Positions 9,070 to 16,981 of a stretch of 64,000 nucleotides of DNA are shown in pieces. Where the stretch lies: the NCBI GenBank assembly GCA_014860455.1, contig JACZJQ010000055.1, positions 1 through 64,000 on the forward strand, in the 5' to 3' direction. A program made the position numbers and the translations under genes. The notes beneath the pieces are model-generated. The model made no database searches and was not told where the DNA came from. It saw only the letters and a list, made by a program, of their open reading frames with translations. Every line of letters begins with the position of its first letter. Within the stretch, counting starts at the first letter, position 1. The stretch comes from Bryobacteraceae bacterium (GTDB lineage: Bacteria; Acidobacteriota; Terriglobia; Bryobacterales; Bryobacteraceae).

Positions 9070-9142
9070 GGGTGTCTATGGTGGTGAACGCCACGGCTAG
9101 GCCGGCTTGCCGGGGCGCGAAAGACGGATCGAGGAGGAAGCC

Positions 9143-9907
9143 ATGTTTGAGCAGAGCTTCGTCCAGCCCGCGTCGCGCGTCCGCACCGGCTGGAGCCTGA
9201 TGACATCGTTTGGCATGCAGGCATTGCTGGTGACAGCGGCGATCGCCATCCCGCTGGTCAACCCTGAAATGCTGCCCAAGGCGATGACGCAGATCGCGCT
9301 CACCGCGCCGCCCGGACCGCCGCCTGGTCCGCCGCCCGATGCCCCACGCGTGGCCGCCTCGAACCGCGTACAACCGCGGCCAGTGACACGAGGATTGATT
9401 GAGCCGGCGACGATGCCGGCAAGGCCAGAGGTTGTCATCGATGTACCCGATCATGATGTGATTGCCGGAAACGCTGGACCTGGGATCCCTGGCGGCATCG
9501 GGACCGCTGGTGGGGGCGGGGGCTCGGATTTCATGCGTTCGCTGTTGACGGCTGCGCAGGTGCAGGCACCGCCGGTGAAGGTGGAACCCAGGCTCGAACC
9601 GCCGAAGCCGCCCGCGGCGCCGATCGTGGTGAGCAAGGGCGTGCAGGAGGCGATGATCCTGTCGAAGACGATTCCGGTTTATCCGCCGATCGCGTTGAAG
9701 GCGCGGATCGAAGGCGTCGTTCATATGACAGCGCTGATCAGCCGCGAGGGCATAGTGACGCACCTGAAGGTGATCAGCGGCCACCCGATTCTTGTGCCCG
9801 CGGCCATCGAAGCGGTGAAACAGTGGCGCTACCGGCCGACGTTGCTCAACGGTGTACCGATGGAGGTTGTGACGCAGGTAGACGCAAAGTTCAGCCTGAC
9901 GCGATAG
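9143..9907 (+). CDS. TonB C-terminal domain protein
   Basis: A 254-residue inner-membrane-anchored protein. One transmembrane segment lies at residues 24-45, followed by a proline-rich spanning region (PPGPPPGPPPDAP) and a TonB_C fold at about residues 170-254 (YPPIALKARIEGVVHMTALI to AVKQWRYRP). TonB proteins couple proton motive force from ExbB/ExbD to outer-membrane transporters; neither exbB nor exbD is here. GAGGAGG 4 nt before ATG 9143 fixes the start. Alternatively it is a TonB-like envelope scaffold, since Acidobacteriota carry many paralogues. Confidence 0.85.
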   Translation: MFEQSFVQPASRVRTGWSLMTSFGMQALLVTAAIAIPLVNPEMLPKAMTQIALTAPPGPPPGPPPDAPRVAASNRVQPRPVTRGLIEPATMPARPEVVIDVPDHDVIAGNAGPGIPGGIGTAGGGGGSDFMRSLLTAAQVQAPPVKVEPRLEPPKPPAAPIVVSKGVQEAMILSKTIPVYPPIALKARIEGVVHMTALISREGIVTHLKVISGHPILVPAAIEAVKQWRYRPTLLNGVPMEVVTQVDAKFSLTR

Positions 9908-9943
9908 CGCAACCGGCCGCCAGTGCGCTAGACTGTAATTTCA

Positions 9944-10012
9944 ATGTTCGCCGCGTGCGCAATCCAGGCCCACCATCACCATCATGAGATGGGCCCTCGA
10001 TCCGCGTCTTAG
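9944..10012 (+). CDS. hisL: Histidine operon leader peptide
   Basis: A 22-codon frame, ATG 9944 to TAG 10010-10012, reads MFAACAIQAHHHHHEMGPRS followed by Ala-Ser. Codons 10-14 (9971-9985) are five consecutive histidines (CAC CAT CAC CAT CAT). It lies immediately upstream of the his operon and overlaps the antiterminator arm, as an attenuation leader must. A TAGACT -10-like box lies 9 nt before the ATG and no Shine-Dalgarno is visible, so it may itself be leaderless. Ribosome stalling at the His run would sense charged tRNA-His. Seen directly: His run, stop, structures and position. Inferred: function. Confidence 0.88.
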   Translation: MFAACAIQAHHHHHEMGPRSAS

Positions 10013-10043
10013 CGACGAGCGAAGAGACGAGATTGGATGGCCC
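9991..10043 (+). promoter_or_regulatory. Antiterminator pairing of the his attenuator
   Basis: GGGCC (9991-9995) pairs with GGCCC (10039-10043), and ATCC (10000-10003) with GGAT (10035-10038). This gives 9 bp with a 4-nt bulge. The 5' arm lies inside the last codons of the leader peptide; the 3' arm overlaps the 5' arm of the terminator at 10037-10047, so the two folds exclude each other. A ribosome stalled at the His codons leaves the 5' arm free (read-through). A ribosome at the leader stop covers it (termination). Confidence 0.75.
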
Positions 10044-10073
10044 GCCGAGCGAAAACCGGCGGGCCATTTTGTA
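10037..10073 (+). terminator. his operon attenuator terminator
   Basis: A perfect 11-bp stem, ATGGCCCGCCG (10037-10047) with CGGCGGGCCAT (10057-10067), closes a 9-nt loop. TTTTGTATTT follows. It ends about 24 bp before the hisI start, between the leader peptide and the first structural gene. Confidence 0.85.
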
Positions 10074-10096
10074 TTTCAAGGACGGACTGAATAGAG

Positions 10097-10465
10097 ATGA
10101 ATCTGGATTTCAGCAAACTCGACGGCCTGATCCCGGCCGTGATACAGGACGAGAAGTCGGGGCGAGTGTTGATGGTCGGCTTCATGAACGAAGAGTCGTT
10201 CAGGATGACGGTCGAGACGGGCTTTGCGACGTTCTACAGCAGGTCGCGCAACAAGTTGTGGTTGAAGGGAGAATCGTCGGGTCACAAGCTGGTGGTGAAG
10301 TCGATTCAAACCGACTGCGACCGCGACACGGTGCTGGTGGCGGTGGAAGCGGTGGGTCCGGGCGTGTGCCATGAGGGCTATGAATCCTGTTTCTTCCGCA
10401 CGCTGGAGGGCGGCGAGTGGAAGGTGAGCGAAGCGCAGACCTACGATCCGAAGAAGGTGTACTAA
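10097..10465 (+). CDS. hisI: Phosphoribosyl-AMP cyclohydrolase
   Basis: A 122-residue monofunctional HisI; opens the ring of PR-AMP to ProFAR in the third step of histidine synthesis, in the cytoplasm. The [18 protein letters not shown] substrate loop, the DCDRD metal site and the C-terminal [11 protein letters not shown] cysteines are all present. It is too short to include the HisE pyrophosphohydrolase domain of HisIE fusions. It is the first structural gene after the attenuator, and hisG starts 2 bp after its stop. Confidence 0.95.
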
Positions 10466-10467
10466 CG

Positions 10468-11337
10468 ATGAAACTGAAGCTGGGTATTCCGAAGGGGTCG
10501 CTTGAAAACGCGACCGTCGACCTGTTCCGAAAAGCCGGGTTCAACATCACGATATCGAGCCGGTCGTACTTTCCGGCGATCGACGACCCCGAGATCGAAT
10601 GCATGCTGATCCGAGCGCAGGAGATGGCGCGCTATGTTGAGGACGGCGTGCTTGACGCCGGATTGACGGGCTATGACTGGGTGGTGGAAAACGACGCCGA
10701 CGTGGTGACGGTGGCCGACCTGGTCTACGCGAAGCAGAGCTTCGGCAAGGTGCGTTGGGTGCTGGCGGTGCCGGAGTCGTCGACGATCCAGTCGGCCACG
10801 GATCTGGAGGGCAAGATCATCGCGACAGAGCTTGTGGGCGCGACGAAGCGATATCTGGCGAAGTACGGCGTGACGGCGAAGGTGGAGTTCAGTTGGGGCG
10901 CGACCGAAGTGAAGCCGCCAGTGCTGGCCGACGCGATTGTTGAAGTGACCGAGACGGGCTCGTCGCTGCGGGCCAATAAGCTGCGGATCATCGAGACGGT
11001 GATGGAGTCGAACACACAACTGGTGGCGAACAAGCAGTCGTGGGCCGACGATTGGAAGCGGCAGAAGCTGGAAGACATGAAGATGCTGCTCGACGGCGCG
11101 ATCGCCGCGATGGGCAAGGTGGGGCTGATGTTGAACGTGCAGAAGGGGGAGCTGGAAGCGGTGCTGGGCGTGCTGCCGGCGTTGAAGAATCCGACGGTGT
11201 CGCCGCTGAGCCACGGCGACTGGTATGCGGTGAACACCATCCTGGACGAGACCACCGTGCGCAGCATCATCCCGCGGCTGAAACAGGCCGGGGCGCAGGG
11301 CATCGTCGAATACCCGTTGAACAAGATCGTGATGTGA
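10468..11337 (+). CDS. hisG: ATP phosphoribosyltransferase, long form
   Basis: A 289-residue enzyme joining ATP and PRPP, the committed and usually feedback-regulated step. The start [13 protein letters not shown] is the typical HisG N-terminus. [13 protein letters not shown] and the PRPP-loop region [16 protein letters not shown] are visible. The length and C-terminal [11 protein letters not shown]...[22 protein letters not shown] region indicate HisG-long with its own regulatory domain, so no HisZ is needed. ATG 10468 lies just past the hisI stop; an earlier in-frame start would overlap hisI and lacks the family N-terminus. Confidence 0.95.
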
Positions 11338-11345
11338 GGCGCGCG

Positions 11346-12590
11346 ATGATTCGAATACTTGAGAGCAAGGACGCGGCAAAGCTGCTGCGGCGCCGTGCGG
11401 CGCGGATGAGCGAAGCCGAGCAGACGGTGCGGCCGATTTTGGAGGATGTCAGAACCAAAGGCGACAAGGCGCTGCTGGCTTATGCGCGCAAGTTCGACGG
11501 GCTGAAGCGCAAGACGGTGGCCGTGCCGCGAGAAGAGTTGGCGGCGGCGGCGGGCAGGCTGGGCGCAGAGTTCCGCAAAGCGGTGAAGTCATCGGCGGCG
11601 AACGTGCGCGCTTATGCGAAGCTGCAGATGCCGCAGTCCAAGAGCGTGGAGCCTGCGCCGGGATTGAAGCTGTCGCAGATCGTCAGGCCGCTTGATACGG
11701 TGGCGGCCTACATTCCCGCAGGGCGGTATCCGCTGCCGTCGACCGTGATCATGACCGTCGTGCCGGCAGTGGCCGCGGGCGTTGAGAGGATCCTGCTGTG
11801 CGCGCCGAAGCCGGTGGACGGCATCTTCGGCACGGCGCATTTACTCGGCGCTACACACGTCTTTGAAATGGGCGGGGCGCACGCTATCGCGGCGTTCGCG
11901 TATGGGACCAAGACCGTGCCGCGCGCCGACCGCATCGTAGGGCCCGGCAACATCTATGTCGCGGCGGCGAAGAAGTTGCTCGCCGGGGAGACGGGTATCG
12001 ATTTCGTCGCCGGTCCGACTGAGATCCTGATCATCGCCGCGGACGGCAATCCGCGGTGGCTGGCCGCCGACATGTTGGCGCAGGCCGAACATGACACCGA
12101 CGCGTCGGCGATCCTGCTGACGACGTCGAAGACGCTGGCGGCAGAGGTCGCCGCGGAGATTGAGACACAACTGGCGACGCTGCCAACAGCGGGCGTGGCG
12201 CGCAAGGCGATCGATCGCAATAGCGCCGTGATTGTCGTCGAGTCGCTGGACGAGGCGGTGGAACTGTCGAACCGTTTCGCGCCGGAGCATTTGAGCCTGC
12301 ACGATGCGAAGCTGCTGGGCAAGGTCCGGCACGCGGGCAGCGTGTTCCTCGGGCCGCTGAGCCCGGAGGCAGCGGGCGATTATGCGTCGGGCCCGAATCA
12401 CGTCCTGCCGACATCGGGCGTGGCGCGACTGCGGGGCGGACTGTCCGCGGCCGATTACGTGAAGACGATCTCGGTGCAGCAGTTGAGCCTGCCCGCGCTG
12501 AAGCGGCTTGAGAGTTCGATCACCACGCTGGCACGGGCTGAGGGCCTGGAAGCGCACGCGCGTTCGGTGGAGGTGCGCACCCGTGGCTGA
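11346..12590 (+). CDS. hisD: Histidinol dehydrogenase
   Basis: A 414-residue zinc enzyme oxidising histidinol to histidine in two NAD-dependent steps, the end of the pathway. Recognised by AAYIPAGRYPLPST, RIVGPGNIYVAAAKK, AGPTEILI, AQAEHD and GPNHVLPT, which carry the zinc and substrate residues of the family. ATG 11346 lies 9 bp after the hisG stop with a weak upstream Shine-Dalgarno. Full length. The hisC start lies inside its last codons. Confidence 0.96.
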   Translation: MIRILESKDAAKLLRRRAARMSEAEQTVRPILEDVRTKGDKALLAYARKFDGLKRKTVAVPREELAAAAGRLGAEFRKAVKSSAANVRAYAKLQMPQSKSVEPAPGLKLSQIVRPLDTVAAYIPAGRYPLPSTVIMTVVPAVAAGVERILLCAPKPVDGIFGTAHLLGATHVFEMGGAHAIAAFAYGTKTVPRADRIVGPGNIYVAAAKKLLAGETGIDFVAGPTEILIIAADGNPRWLAADMLAQAEHDTDASAILLTTSKTLAAEVAAEIETQLATLPTAGVARKAIDRNSAVIVVESLDEAVELSNRFAPEHLSLHDAKLLGKVRHAGSVFLGPLSPEAAGDYASGPNHVLPTSGVARLRGGLSAADYVKTISVQQLSLPALKRLESSITTLARAEGLEAHARSVEVRTRG

Positions 12591-13641
12591 GCCATTGAAG
12601 CCGAGACCCGCCGTTGAGAAGATGGCGCCGTACTCGCCGCCGACCGCGGGCCGCGCGGGCAAACTGCGGCTGGACTTCAACGAGAACACGGTGGGCTGCT
12701 CGCCGGCAGTGGTGCGGTTCCTGGTGGAGAAGCTGACGCAGGAGCAGTTGACGATCTATCCGGAGTACGAAGCAACGCGCGCGGCGCTGGCGCGGTATTT
12801 CGGGCAGAGCGAATTGCGGTTCGCCATCACGAATGGAACCGACGAGGCGATCCAGGTGCTGGTGAACACGTATGTCGACGACGGCGATGAGGTGCTGATA
12901 TTTCACCCGTCGTATGCGATGTACCGTTTCTATTCGGAGGTGGCAGGGGCTGCGGTGCGGGAACTGGCGTATCGCGAATCGGACTTGTCGTTCCCGCTGG
13001 AGGAAGTGACCGGTGCGGTCAGCGAACGGACACGTGCGATCCTGATTTCGAATCCCAACAACCCAACTGGCACGGCCATCGGACTTGATGCGGTGGAGAC
13101 GGTACTGAAGGCGGCGCCCAGAGCGGCGGTGCTGATCGACGAGGCGTACTTCGAGTTCTTCGGTGTGACCGCGCTGGATTTGATCGATGCCTATCCGAAC
13201 CTGTTTGTCAGCAGGACGTTTTCGAAAGCATTCGGGATGGCTGCGATGCGCGTGGGCTGCCTGTTCTCGCAGGAGGCCAATGTCCAATACATGCGCAAGG
13301 CGCAGTCGCCTTACAGCGTGAACATGCTGGCTGCGCTGGCGGTGAGAGCGGCGGTGGAAGACGCGGCCTATGTCAACGACTACGTCGCCAACGCGCTGGC
13401 CGCTCGTGAGTTGATCTACGAAGGGTTCCGCAGGCGCGGTATCCGGTTCTACACGAGCCAGGCGAATTTTGTTTTATTCCACGCCGGCGAGAAGTCGTCC
13501 GCGGTGCGTGACGGACTGAGAGAGCGCGGCGTATTGGTACGGGACCGGAGTTATGAGATCCCGGGCACGGTGCGCGTCACGGCAGGCACGCCCGAGCAGG
13601 CCGCCAGATTTTTCGAAGCGCTGGACGAGGTATGGAAATGA
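12583..13641 (+). CDS. hisC: Histidinol-phosphate aminotransferase
   Basis: A 352-residue class I/II PLP aminotransferase that converts imidazole-acetol phosphate to histidinol phosphate with glutamate. Motifs in order: LDFNENTVGCSP near the N-terminus, SNPNNPTGTA, LIDEAYFEF, and SRTFSKAFGMAAMRVG with the PLP lysine. The start is GTG 12583, 8 nt upstream of the hisD stop end, with GGAGGTG just upstream; earlier in-frame codons lie inside hisD and lack the family N-terminus. Operon position supports HisC over other aromatic aminotransferases. Confidence 0.93.
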   Translation: MAEPLKPRPAVEKMAPYSPPTAGRAGKLRLDFNENTVGCSPAVVRFLVEKLTQEQLTIYPEYEATRAALARYFGQSELRFAITNGTDEAIQVLVNTYVDDGDEVLIFHPSYAMYRFYSEVAGAAVRELAYRESDLSFPLEEVTGAVSERTRAILISNPNNPTGTAIGLDAVETVLKAAPRAAVLIDEAYFEFFGVTALDLIDAYPNLFVSRTFSKAFGMAAMRVGCLFSQEANVQYMRKAQSPYSVNMLAALAVRAAVEDAAYVNDYVANALAARELIYEGFRRRGIRFYTSQANFVLFHAGEKSSAVRDGLRERGVLVRDRSYEIPGTVRVTAGTPEQAARFFEALDEVWK

Positions 13642-14330
13642 GTGTGAACGGCGATGCGAGGCCGGTCCTCGTCTTCGACATGGATGGAGTGCTGGCCGAG
13701 GTGAGTGAAAGTTACATCGAAGGCATTGTCCAGACGGTGCGCCACTTCACGGGCAAGACGGTGGACCGCGAGACGATCCACGGCTACAAGAACCGAGGCG
13801 GGTACAACAACGACTGGCTGCTGTCGCAGACGCTGTGCAGGGACCATGGTGTCGAGGTTGAATACCAGACCGTGGTCGATCACTTCTGCCGTATCTTCTT
13901 TGGCGAGAACAATGACGGGTTGATCTCGCGCGAGCAGTGGATTCCTTCGGACGGGTTATTGGAACGACTGGCCGCACGGTTCAGGCTGGCGATCTTCACC
14001 GGCCGCAACCAGGCTGAAGCTGGCGTGACGCTGCGCAAGTATGCATCGGGCATTCGTTTCGATCCTCTGTTGACGGCCGATGAAGTGGTAAACGGCAAGC
14101 CGGCTCCGGACGGGCTGAACATGATCCGCGAACAGACGGGGGCGAGCAAGTATTACTACGTCGGCGACACGGTGGACGATGCGCGGAGTTCGCGGGCCGC
14201 AGGCGTGCCGTTTATCGGTATCGCGGCGCAGTCGAATCCGCGCTGTGCGGAACTGGTGGCCGCCATGCGGGCCGAGAATGCCATCGCGATTATTGAGGAC
14301 GTGAATCAATTGGAAGGAGTGCTGCCATGA
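13638..14330 (+). CDS. HAD-superfamily phosphatase in the his operon; candidate histidinol-phosphatase
   Basis: A 230-residue HAD hydrolase with all four motifs: FDMDGV (nucleophile and acid), IFTGRN (Thr), NGKPAPDG (Lys) and [12 protein letters not shown] (metal-binding acids). A helical cap lies between motifs I and II, as in subfamily IA. It sits between hisC and hisB with ATGA overlaps at both ends, so it is co-translated with them. The downstream hisB encodes only the dehydratase domain and no PHP-type HisK is present, so this is the natural candidate for dephosphorylating histidinol phosphate. Seen: fold and context. Inferred: substrate. A metabolite-repair phosphatase is the alternative. 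Confidence 0.75.
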
Positions 14331-14914
14331 GGTCAGCGACAGTCGAGAGGGTTACCCGGGAGACGCAGATCTCCGGATCGCTGAAGATCGAGGGCAAAGG
14401 CCGATACACCATTTCGACGCAGGTGCGGTTCCTCGACCACATGCTGGAACTGTTCGCCAAACATGGCGGATTTGACCTGACCATCGACGCCAAGGGCGAC
14501 ATGGATGTTGACCAGCATCACACGGTGGAAGACATCGGCATCGTGCTGGGACAGCTGTTTTCAAAAGCGTTGGGCGACCGCACGGGCATCAACCGCGCAG
14601 GCTATTTCGTGCTGCCGATGGACGAGACGCTGGGCGTGGTGGCGGTGGACCTGGGCGGGCGGCCGTATCTGGTTTACGACGACAAGGTGAAGACGCGGCT
14701 TGTCGGCGACCTGCAATCGGAATTGCTTGAAGACTTCTTCCACGGCTTCACGACGCACGCCGGCGCGAACCTCCACGCCAAGATCATGTACGGGCGCTCA
14801 AACCACCACAAGGTGGAAGCGATCTTCAAATGCTGGGCGCGGGCGATGCGGTACGCGTGTTCGAAAGACACGCGGCTGAAAGACCAGTTGCCGTCGACCA
14901 AGGGGCTGCTGTGA
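14327..14914 (+). CDS. hisB: Imidazoleglycerol-phosphate dehydratase
   Basis: A 195-residue, monofunctional IGP dehydratase without the N-terminal phosphatase domain of enterobacterial His[26 protein letters not shown] and the second metal-binding repeat [10 protein letters not shown] supply the histidine/glutamate manganese sites; the ending STKGLL is typical. ATG overlaps the upstream HAD stop by 4 bp (ATGA). It makes imidazole-acetol phosphate for HisC. Confidence 0.96.
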
Positions 14915-15504
14915 TCACGATCATCGACTACGGCGCGGGCAATCTGCGCTCGGTGGAGAACACGCTCGGCGCGTTGGGAGCGCCATACGAACTCACACGC
15001 TCGGCTGAGGGCGTGCTAGCGGCGGAGAAACTGATCCTGCCGGGCGTGGGCCACTACGGGCAGATGATGGGCGCGCTGGATGAATTGGACCTGCGCAAAT
15101 CGATCATTGAAAAACTGAACAGCGGGTCGCCGTTTCTGGGCATCTGCCTGGGGATGCAGGCGCTGTTTGACTCGAGCGCCGAGGCGCCTGAGCAGGCTGG
15201 TTTCTCTGTGTTCAAGGGGCGTGTTGAGCGCTTCTCCGCTGATGCGCGCGTGCCGCACATGGGCTGGAACGAGATTGTGCCGGTGAAGCCGGGCCGGTTG
15301 CTGGACGGAATTGGAGTCAAGCCATATGTGTATTTCGCACATAGCTACTATTGCCCCTTAGTGGCGGCGACAGCGGCCAAATGCAACTACACGTTGGACT
15401 ACACAGCGGCCATTGAGCAGGACAACATATACGGGGTTCAGTTTCATCCTGAGAAGTCCGGTCCGCTCGGGTTGAAGATTGTGCGCAACTTCGTGGAGCT
15501 GTAG
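14911..15504 (+). CDS. hisH: Imidazole glycerol phosphate synthase, glutaminase subunit
   Basis: A 197-residue class I glutamine amidotransferase supplying ammonia to HisF. It has the start [17 protein letters not shown], the nucleophile in GICLGMQ, and the His-Glu pair in HPEKSG. GTG 14911 overlaps the hisB stop by 4 bp (GTGA), which is preferred over an upstream in-frame start inside hisB. It forms a heterodimer with the HisF encoded next. Confidence 0.95.
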
Positions 15505-15506
15505 AG

Positions 15507-16271
15507 ATGCTGGCAAAACGGATCATTCCCTGCCTCGACGTCACCGGCGGCCGCGTGGTGAAGGGCGTCAACTTCGTCGGCCTGCGCGATGCGGGCGACC
15601 CTGTTGAACTCGCCGCCCGCTACAACGAACAGAGCGCCGACGAACTGGTTTTCCTCGACATCACGGCATCGAGCGACGGCCGCGACACGATGGTGGACGT
15701 GGTGGACCGCACGGCGCGAGAGGTGTTCATTCCTTTGACTGTCGGCGGCGGAATCCGCGGCGTGGAAGACGCCCGGCGGATCCTGCACGCCGGAGCCGAC
15801 AAGGTCTCGGTGAACACGGCGGCGGTGCACCGGCCCGAACTGATCACCGAGCTGTCGAACGAGTTCGGTGCGCAGGCCGTGGTCCTGGCTATTGACGCGA
15901 AACACAATGCCCGTGGGGGTTGGAACGTGTTCACCAAGGGCGGGCGCGTGGACGAGGGCACCGACGCGGTCGAATGGGCCGCGCGCGGCGAGGCGCTTGG
16001 CGCGGGTGAAATCCTGCTGACGTCGATGGACACCGACGGCGTGCAGGACGGTTTCGATTGCGCGCTGACGCGGGCGATCTCGCGCGCGACGAAGATTCCC
16101 GTGATCGCTTCGGGCGGCGCCGGCAAGCCGGAGCATTTCGTCCGAGTGTTGACGGAGGGCGAGGCGGATGCGGCGCTTGCGGCGTCGATCTTCCACTACG
16201 GGACCTACACGGTGGATGAGTTGAAAGAGCAGCTTGAAAAGGCCGGCATCCCGGTGAGGAGAGCGCGTTGA
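15507..16271 (+). CDS. hisF: Imidazole glycerol phosphate synthase, cyclase subunit
   Basis: A 254-residue TIM barrel that closes the imidazole ring and releases AICAR. It begins [19 protein letters not shown], with the first catalytic Asp in CLDV. The second lies in [15 protein letters not shown], and the phosphate loops SGGAG and ASIFHYG are present. It starts 2 bp after hisH and its stop overlaps hisA by 4 bp. Confidence 0.97.
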
Positions 16272-16981
16272 TTATTCCCTGCATTGACCTGATGGACGGC
16301 AAGGTGGTCCAACTCATCCAGGGCCGCGAAAAGGCGCTGGAAGGCGCCGCGCCGCTGGAGATGCTGGCCCGCTTCGAGGGCTTCCCTCAGATCCAGGTGA
16401 TCGATCTGGATGCGGCGCTGGGCCGAGGGGAGAACGACGCCATCGTCGAGCTGTTGGCGTCGCGGGCCCGCTGCCGGGTGGGCGGCGGCGTGCGCACTGT
16501 CGAACGCGCGCGGACGTTGATTGGCTGTGGCGCACACCGCGTCATCGTGGGCACGTCGGCATTCACAGGCCAGGGTGTGAACCATGCGCTGCTCGAAACA
16601 GTCGCCGCAACCATCGGGCGAGAACGCGTCACCATCGCCCTGGATTCCAAGGGCGGTCGCATCGTGGTAAAGGGCTGGACCGAGTCGCTCGACTTCCCGG
16701 CCGAACAGGTGCTCACACAGCTTGAACCCTATTGCGGCAGCTTCCTCTGCACCTACGTCGACAAGGAAGGCATGATGCAGGGCACCGATCTGGCTTGGTT
16801 CGGCCGCCTGCGCGCAGGCACGGCCCACGGCATCACGGCCGCCGGCGGCATCACCACGGCCGATGAGATCCGCGCTCTTGAAGCCATGCGCATCGACTCG
16901 GCGCTCGGCATGGCCATTTACACGGGCCGGCTTGACCTTGCCGAGATGCGGCGGCTGAACGACACGTTCCTGGCCGATTGA
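16268..16981 (+). CDS. hisA: ProFAR isomerase, divergent (eukaryote-like) HisA
   Basis: A 237-residue TIM barrel starting at TTG 16268 in a TTGA overlap with his[16 protein letters not shown] gives the first catalytic Asp, and [16 protein letters not shown] holds the second; GGGVRTVER and [11 protein letters not shown] are phosphate-binding loops. The second catalytic loop lacks the usual bacterial DIxRDGT pattern and resembles the DVEG loop of eukaryotic HIS6 instead, as does the overall spacing. Position between hisF and the operon end supports HisA. No stem-loop separates it from the convergent aldo/keto reductase 10 bp on. Confidence 0.88.

Follow-up and report, generated by a model that had tools for sequence, protein, structure and literature searches.

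A predicted, probably leaderless histidine attenuator upstream of hisI in a Bryobacteraceae bacterium and its conservation across the Acidobacteriota

Leader-peptide attenuation of histidine biosynthesis is established in enterobacteria, where the hisL leader has a layout of six segments. In Escherichia coli and Salmonella this leader (Rfam family RF00514) combines a run of His codons in a short frame with a choice between antiterminator and terminator that is set by the position of the ribosome, upstream of the his operon. Comparable elements have been predicted by comparison in several Firmicutes, where His-run leader peptides are again combined with alternative hairpins (PMC2965389, PMC9413887); these cases include the B. 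cereus group, Peptostreptococcaceae and Erysipelotrichales (PMC9413887), as well as the hisZ/hisS* leaders of bacilli (PMC2965389). Hence, a preliminary description of the present locus was correct in calling his attenuation best known in Gammaproteobacteria, although it has also been described outside that lineage. Leader peptides translated from the very 5' end of their transcripts have been described for trpL of Sinorhizobium meliloti (PMC10117765) and for leuL, trpL and ilvL of Streptomyces lividans (PMC8079986), and several of these leaders possess an intrinsic terminator. In Corynebacterium glutamicum some his operons are leaderless and control at the RNA level has likewise been proposed, but there a translation-coupled attenuator was excluded because a His leader peptide is lacking, and a T-box-like element was proposed (PMC3896937). 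As for the Acidobacteria, hardly any gene regulation of this kind has been described; according to a 2010 survey, nearly all attenuators predicted in the phylum were without an associated function (PMC2965389). A search of the open literature recovered no report of a his attenuator in Acidobacteriota, with priority left uncertain by subscription papers outside its scope, among them a comparative survey of 2010 (Lopatovskaya et al., cited in PMC4833913).

The window analyzed here is a stretch of 64,000 nucleotides from a Bryobacteraceae bacterium (contig JACZJQ010000055.1), in which the whole his operon occupies positions 10097-16981 with hisI as its first gene. The closest named HisI protein is that of 'Candidatus Solibacter sp.' (96%), followed by those of Bryobacterales/Bryobacteraceae, in agreement with the earlier assignment of the host to Acidobacteriota. 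Upstream of the operon, on the same strand, a gene for a TonB C-terminal-domain protein (9107-9907) ends 37 nt 5' of the leader frame. Within the operon, a gene for a HAD-family phosphatase (13632-14330) is situated between hisC and hisB; its best NCBIfam match, TIGR01548, falls below the cut-off, and it may be the source of the histidinol-phosphate phosphatase step. The features of the locus are as follows:

9929-9934, plus strand: -10 box TAGACT, 9 nt 5' of the ATG, assigned by its position and by the extended -10 consensus in relatives
9944-10012, plus strand: leader peptide frame, MFAACAIQAHHHHHEMGPRSAS followed by a stop codon, by direct reading, with His-rich frames conserved in relatives
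9967-9972, plus strand: segment A, partner of 9990-9995 in the A:B pause (anti-antiterminator) stem, from the minimum-energy fold and A:B co-evolution
9971-9985, plus strand: five consecutive His codons (CAC CAT CAC CAT CAT), the regulatory run, by direct reading
9990-10003, plus strand: segment B, inside the last leader codons, partner of A or C, by direct reading
10035-10047, plus strand: segment C, pairing through 10035-10043 with B (antiterminator) and through 10037-10047 with D (terminator), by direct reading
10057-10067, plus strand: segment D, the 3' arm of the terminator, by direct reading, folding and covariation of the C:D helix over 52 leaders
10068-10076, plus strand: U-tract TTTGTATTT of the intrinsic terminator, by direct reading
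10097-10465, plus strand: hisI, which encodes phosphoribosyl-AMP cyclohydrolase and heads the operon, above the cut-off of NCBIfam PRK00051
10468-16981, plus strand: hisG, hisD, hisC, HAD-family phosphatase gene, hisB, hisH, hisF and hisA, from NCBIfam models, hisA being called from its best match, yet below the cut-off of that model

Direct reading of the leader recovered the frame that had been described before hisI, with 22 codons from the ATG to a TAG stop and five His codons in succession. Its triplets are ATG TTC GCC GCG TGC GCA ATC CAG GCC CAC CAT CAC CAT CAT GAG ATG GGC CCT CGA TCC GCG TCT TAG. The four segments of the leader define two mutually exclusive states, namely A:B together with C:D on the one hand and B:C on the other. 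In the pause stem GGCCCA (9967-9972) pairs with TGGGCC (9990-9995), such that the His codons lie in its loop and the stem rivals the antiterminator. The latter consists of 9 bp, formed by GGGCC (9991-9995) with GGCCC (10039-10043) and by ATCC (10000-10003) with GGAT (10035-10038), and these are interrupted by a bulge of 4 nt (9996-9999); this pairing of 9991-10003 with 10035-10043 and its overlap with the 5' arm of the terminator can be read directly, just as the preliminary description had it. The terminator pairs 10037-10047 with 10057-10067 in a perfect 11-bp helix with a loop of 9 nt, followed by TTTGTATTT. Here the stem given earlier is exact, but the T-rich tail had been given as TTTTGTATTT, the first T of which (10067) is in fact paired. 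The folding of the 161-nt leader stands at a z of -3.8 relative to dinucleotide shuffles, none of 200 being as good, and when the upstream region was shuffled by mononucleotides 20,000 times, five His codons in a row never arose. A chance arrangement is excluded by the conservation of the leader in relatives.

In comparison with hisL, this leader thus displays four segments (A:B / B:C / C:D), as in trp, is probably leaderless, and has hisI as the first gene behind it. From the Firmicutes his attenuators it differs in phylum and sequence; further, those have been described in small groups of genomes, whereas the present element is phylum-wide and has been subjected to a test of co-evolution. 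The leaders of S. meliloti and S. lividans are those of other amino acids, belong to other phyla and come with transcript data, while the one described here concerns histidine and a predicted start. Searches at the Rfam gathering score, with RF00514 (His_leader) and the T-box among the families, recovered no match in the window or at 20 loci, and RF00514 was absent even at E<=10 from the 231-nt leader region. The best sub-threshold match, to Thr_leader (15.8 bits, the cut-off being 55), is at the level of chance and was rejected. This lack of an Rfam match fits an independent origin of the parts, as put forward in the preliminary description, and deep divergence equally well.

Upstream regions of hisI gathered from 61 relatives and 80 named contigs gave 125 distinct regions, mostly from Bryobacterales, and a His-rich short frame (at least three His within eight codons) is present in 107 of them. 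The leader peptides are 15-26 aa in length with a median of 6 His per leader (100 relatives), and an intrinsic terminator with a mean of -18.7 kcal/mol separates the frame from hisI in 100 of the 104 leaders screened. The leader is missing from 18 of the 125 regions, mainly from a large genus (g36 of family f3), most genomes of which are without it, and was therefore either lost or never gained there. In this genus (L033, L037-L041 and others) a conserved promoter-like TTGATATTCTGAGATTCTGGC still precedes hisI although the His leader is missing, which is possibly a natural instance of attenuator loss. A scan of 28 relatives for runs of cognate codons followed by a terminator before trpE-, leuA- and ilvB-like genes yielded no convincing case and a single weak Trp candidate (L230); thus, at the sensitivity of that scan, the design seems to be restricted to histidine in the home order.

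Beyond the home order, a covariance model of 28 home-order leaders gave matches in genomes throughout the phylum, in which the window belongs to family f1, and a second, broader model was built from 52 leaders. The broader model matched 86 of 396 Acidobacteriota genomes at E<1e-6, with one match per genome; at E<1e-4 it recognized all but two of the 46 genomes in family f8 (44). Since the filters of the scan are strict, these counts are lower bounds. Inspection of three batches of matches identified His-rich leader frames in 29 of 29, 32 of 40 and 18 of 20, together spanning at least 20 families, and the other 8 and 2 were dropped as His leaders, being bare terminators or other frames. Going by downstream genes named by eye from their translations, without HMMs, the His leaders are nearly all directly upstream of hisI, hisG or hisD, with one before a hisZ-like gene. 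In family and phylum alike the His run, the stop position and the stems are kept together with no independent drift, which supports the attenuator claimed in the preliminary description.

Several individual loci deserve mention. The His leaders L178 and L179 of family f10 precede a hisD-like gene, while another, MNITRAHRHHHHHHQR (L199 in genome G337), precedes a hisZ/hisS-like gene and not hisI, suggesting that the regulon may extend past the main operon in some families. In genome G218 an isoleucine-rich frame, MSHAGSTLIIAAIAIIPSREGA (L194), followed by a terminator, is found before a threonine dehydratase-like (ilvA) gene; a different family of the phylum may here possess an attenuator for branched-chain amino acids. 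In family f28 (L197 in G419, L327 in G271) a promoter is followed by a short frame without a His run, such as MNSFSAVHPRPSTLSAGGSCAPR, and by a GCGGGG-type terminator upstream of a gene, in a layout resembling that of the His leaders.

When the strength of the duplexes was compared with that of dinucleotide shuffles, B:C showed a mean z of -1.80 and A:B one of -1.32 (SE 0.12, n=100), with the significance of B:C in single leaders often being weak (46% at p<0.05; p 0.26 for the window). Because such tests are weak for single leaders and the strength lies in the set, a swap test was adopted, in which arms are exchanged between genomes while composition and motif conservation are held constant. 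In a set of 45 leaders whose similarity is below 72%, own B:C partners outperform swapped ones by 2.3 kcal/mol (z -5.8) and own A:B partners do so by 3.5 kcal/mol (z -6.9), neither being equaled in 5000 permutations. For A:C, a pairing that has no part in the model and serves as control, own partners have no advantage (z -0.6). The test was replicated on 23 leaders from outside the home family, giving z -3.5 for B:C (4 of 5000 permutations) and z -7.2 for A:B (0 of 5000), with the A:C control at z -0.9. In the helix of the terminator, C:D, changes on both sides were found in 32 cells, against 7.7 expected from shuffling (52 leaders). Covariation in the stems of related leaders, which had earlier been put forward as a check, is thus observed as co-evolution of B:C and A:B and as two-sided changes in C:D.

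These observations bear on several other ways of accounting for the locus. The terminator might merely end the tonB-like gene (9107-9907), whose strand and proximity would allow this, with the His-rich frame being incidental; however, both alternative stems co-evolve, and the joint conservation of promoter, His run and terminator does not extend to the sequence further upstream, making such a reading extremely improbable. In Firmicutes and Actinobacteria, his genes are under the control of T-box or riboswitch-type RNAs (PMC9413887), and by this precedent the RNA could be a direct sensor of uncharged tRNA-His, of a protein or of a metabolite, with the leader remaining untranslated. Almost no credence can be given to this, as no Rfam family matches in the window or at the 20 loci, and sequences that are otherwise very variable retain an open frame, a run of His codons and the geometry between stop codon and segment B, for which translation is the sole explanation. 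The His-rich peptide could itself be the product, for instance in a metal-binding or trans-acting capacity, with attenuation being secondary, given that His runs bind metals and that the trp leader peptide of S. meliloti functions in trans (PMC7298713). Outside the His run, however, the peptides differ in both length (15-26 aa) and sequence, and the conserved GGGC core of segment B is read in all three phases (43, 15 and 21 leaders), implying that it is the RNA rather than the peptide that is kept; a primary role for the peptide is accordingly very unlikely.

In an alternative of a different kind the attenuator is retained, but its transcript starts at a promoter further upstream and has a longer 5' untranslated region, so that it is leadered. 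The leader promoter in relatives has the consensus TGCTATACT...TTCATG, which is of the extended -10 type. A -10 box could be scored in 103 leaders, and in 96 of these it is followed by the start codon at a spacing of 8 nt (56 leaders), 9 nt (31) or 10 nt (9), a regularity absent from the preliminary description. This statistic derives from a set scored without any preference for spacing and excludes the outside-family set, for which a mild preference near 8.5 nt was applied. Based on this spacing, the leader mRNA is probably leaderless, with the frame beginning at the first bases of the RNA, and in the window the predicted start of transcription is at about 9941-9944. Zheng and colleagues take a TA-like signal, situated about 10 bp ahead of the start codon, as indicative of leaderless genes, and report genes of this class in Acidobacteria (PMC3160421). 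An AAGGAG-like site near or before the ATG does occur in a few leaders (L178 and L179), and family f10, to which they belong, may possess a leadered version of the attenuator. For the leaders as a whole a leadered start is nevertheless rather unlikely, in view of the fixed spacing of the extended -10 box and of the scarcity of Shine-Dalgarno-like 4-mers, which precede the leader frame in 6 of 107 cases and hisI itself in 29 of 107.

The element can be identified with high confidence as a ribosome-mediated attenuator that controls transcription of the histidine operon. It displays the run of cognate codons, the downstream his genes, the intrinsic terminator and the exclusive stems with shared segments that typify classical attenuators, and, as judged by modeling, also their stop and stall geometry. 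Whereas the anatomy of the leader, its conservation and the co-evolution of its alternative stems are direct observations, ribosome stalling, termination and a response to histidine are deduced from what is known of such attenuators elsewhere. In the proposed switch, the transcript would begin with the leader AUG or no more than about 3 nt from it, allowing a ribosome to load on the 5' end as the RNA emerges. With charged tRNA-His scarce, this ribosome would stall on the His run and cover segment A; B would then pair with C, the terminator C:D would be blocked, and RNA polymerase would continue into the his genes. With histidine plentiful, it would reach the stop codon and cover B, whereupon C:D would form and transcription would end at the U-tract, 5' of hisI. 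Without a ribosome, A:B would form and C:D would terminate. By analogy with the known systems, the his genes are almost certainly switched on when histidine is scarce.

The consequences of ribosome position were modeled by folding the nascent RNA just after the emergence of segment C, with the footprint of the ribosome, set to an E. coli-like value, being masked. In this model the mean C:B pairing over the set is 0.79 for a stall at the first His codon and 0.16 for a ribosome at the stop codon, supporting the earlier proposal that a ribosome at the stop masks the antiterminator arm and one stalled on His frees segment B. The corresponding values in the window are 0.75 and 0.03, and a switch of more than 0.3 between stall and stop is predicted for 85 of 100 leaders. 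In the ribosome-free state the model favors termination in the window (C:B pairing of 0.00), but the average of the set is 0.49.

Ribosome-mediated his attenuation is in itself a textbook mechanism; what is new, as far as searched, is the phylum, the breadth of its occurrence, the probable leaderless start and the trp-like four-segment layout without an Rfam family. For the Acidobacteriota, which are abundant in soil, the result is an annotated, phylum-wide putative histidine sensor, along with a large natural set of leaders with co-evolved stems. It is also evidence that in this phylum the coupling of transcription and translation is tight enough for attenuation to be kept. Through the combination of a probable leaderless start with his attenuation, the contribution that ribosome loading at the 5' end makes to attenuation becomes accessible to direct tests. 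Tentatively, and with somewhat less than even confidence, it is proposed that in much of the Acidobacteriota the his operon is controlled mainly by an ancestral leaderless his attenuator, with initiation at the 5' end being a part of the switch. If this is true, the ribosome would load as the AUG emerges, locking translation to RNA polymerase from the first nucleotides.
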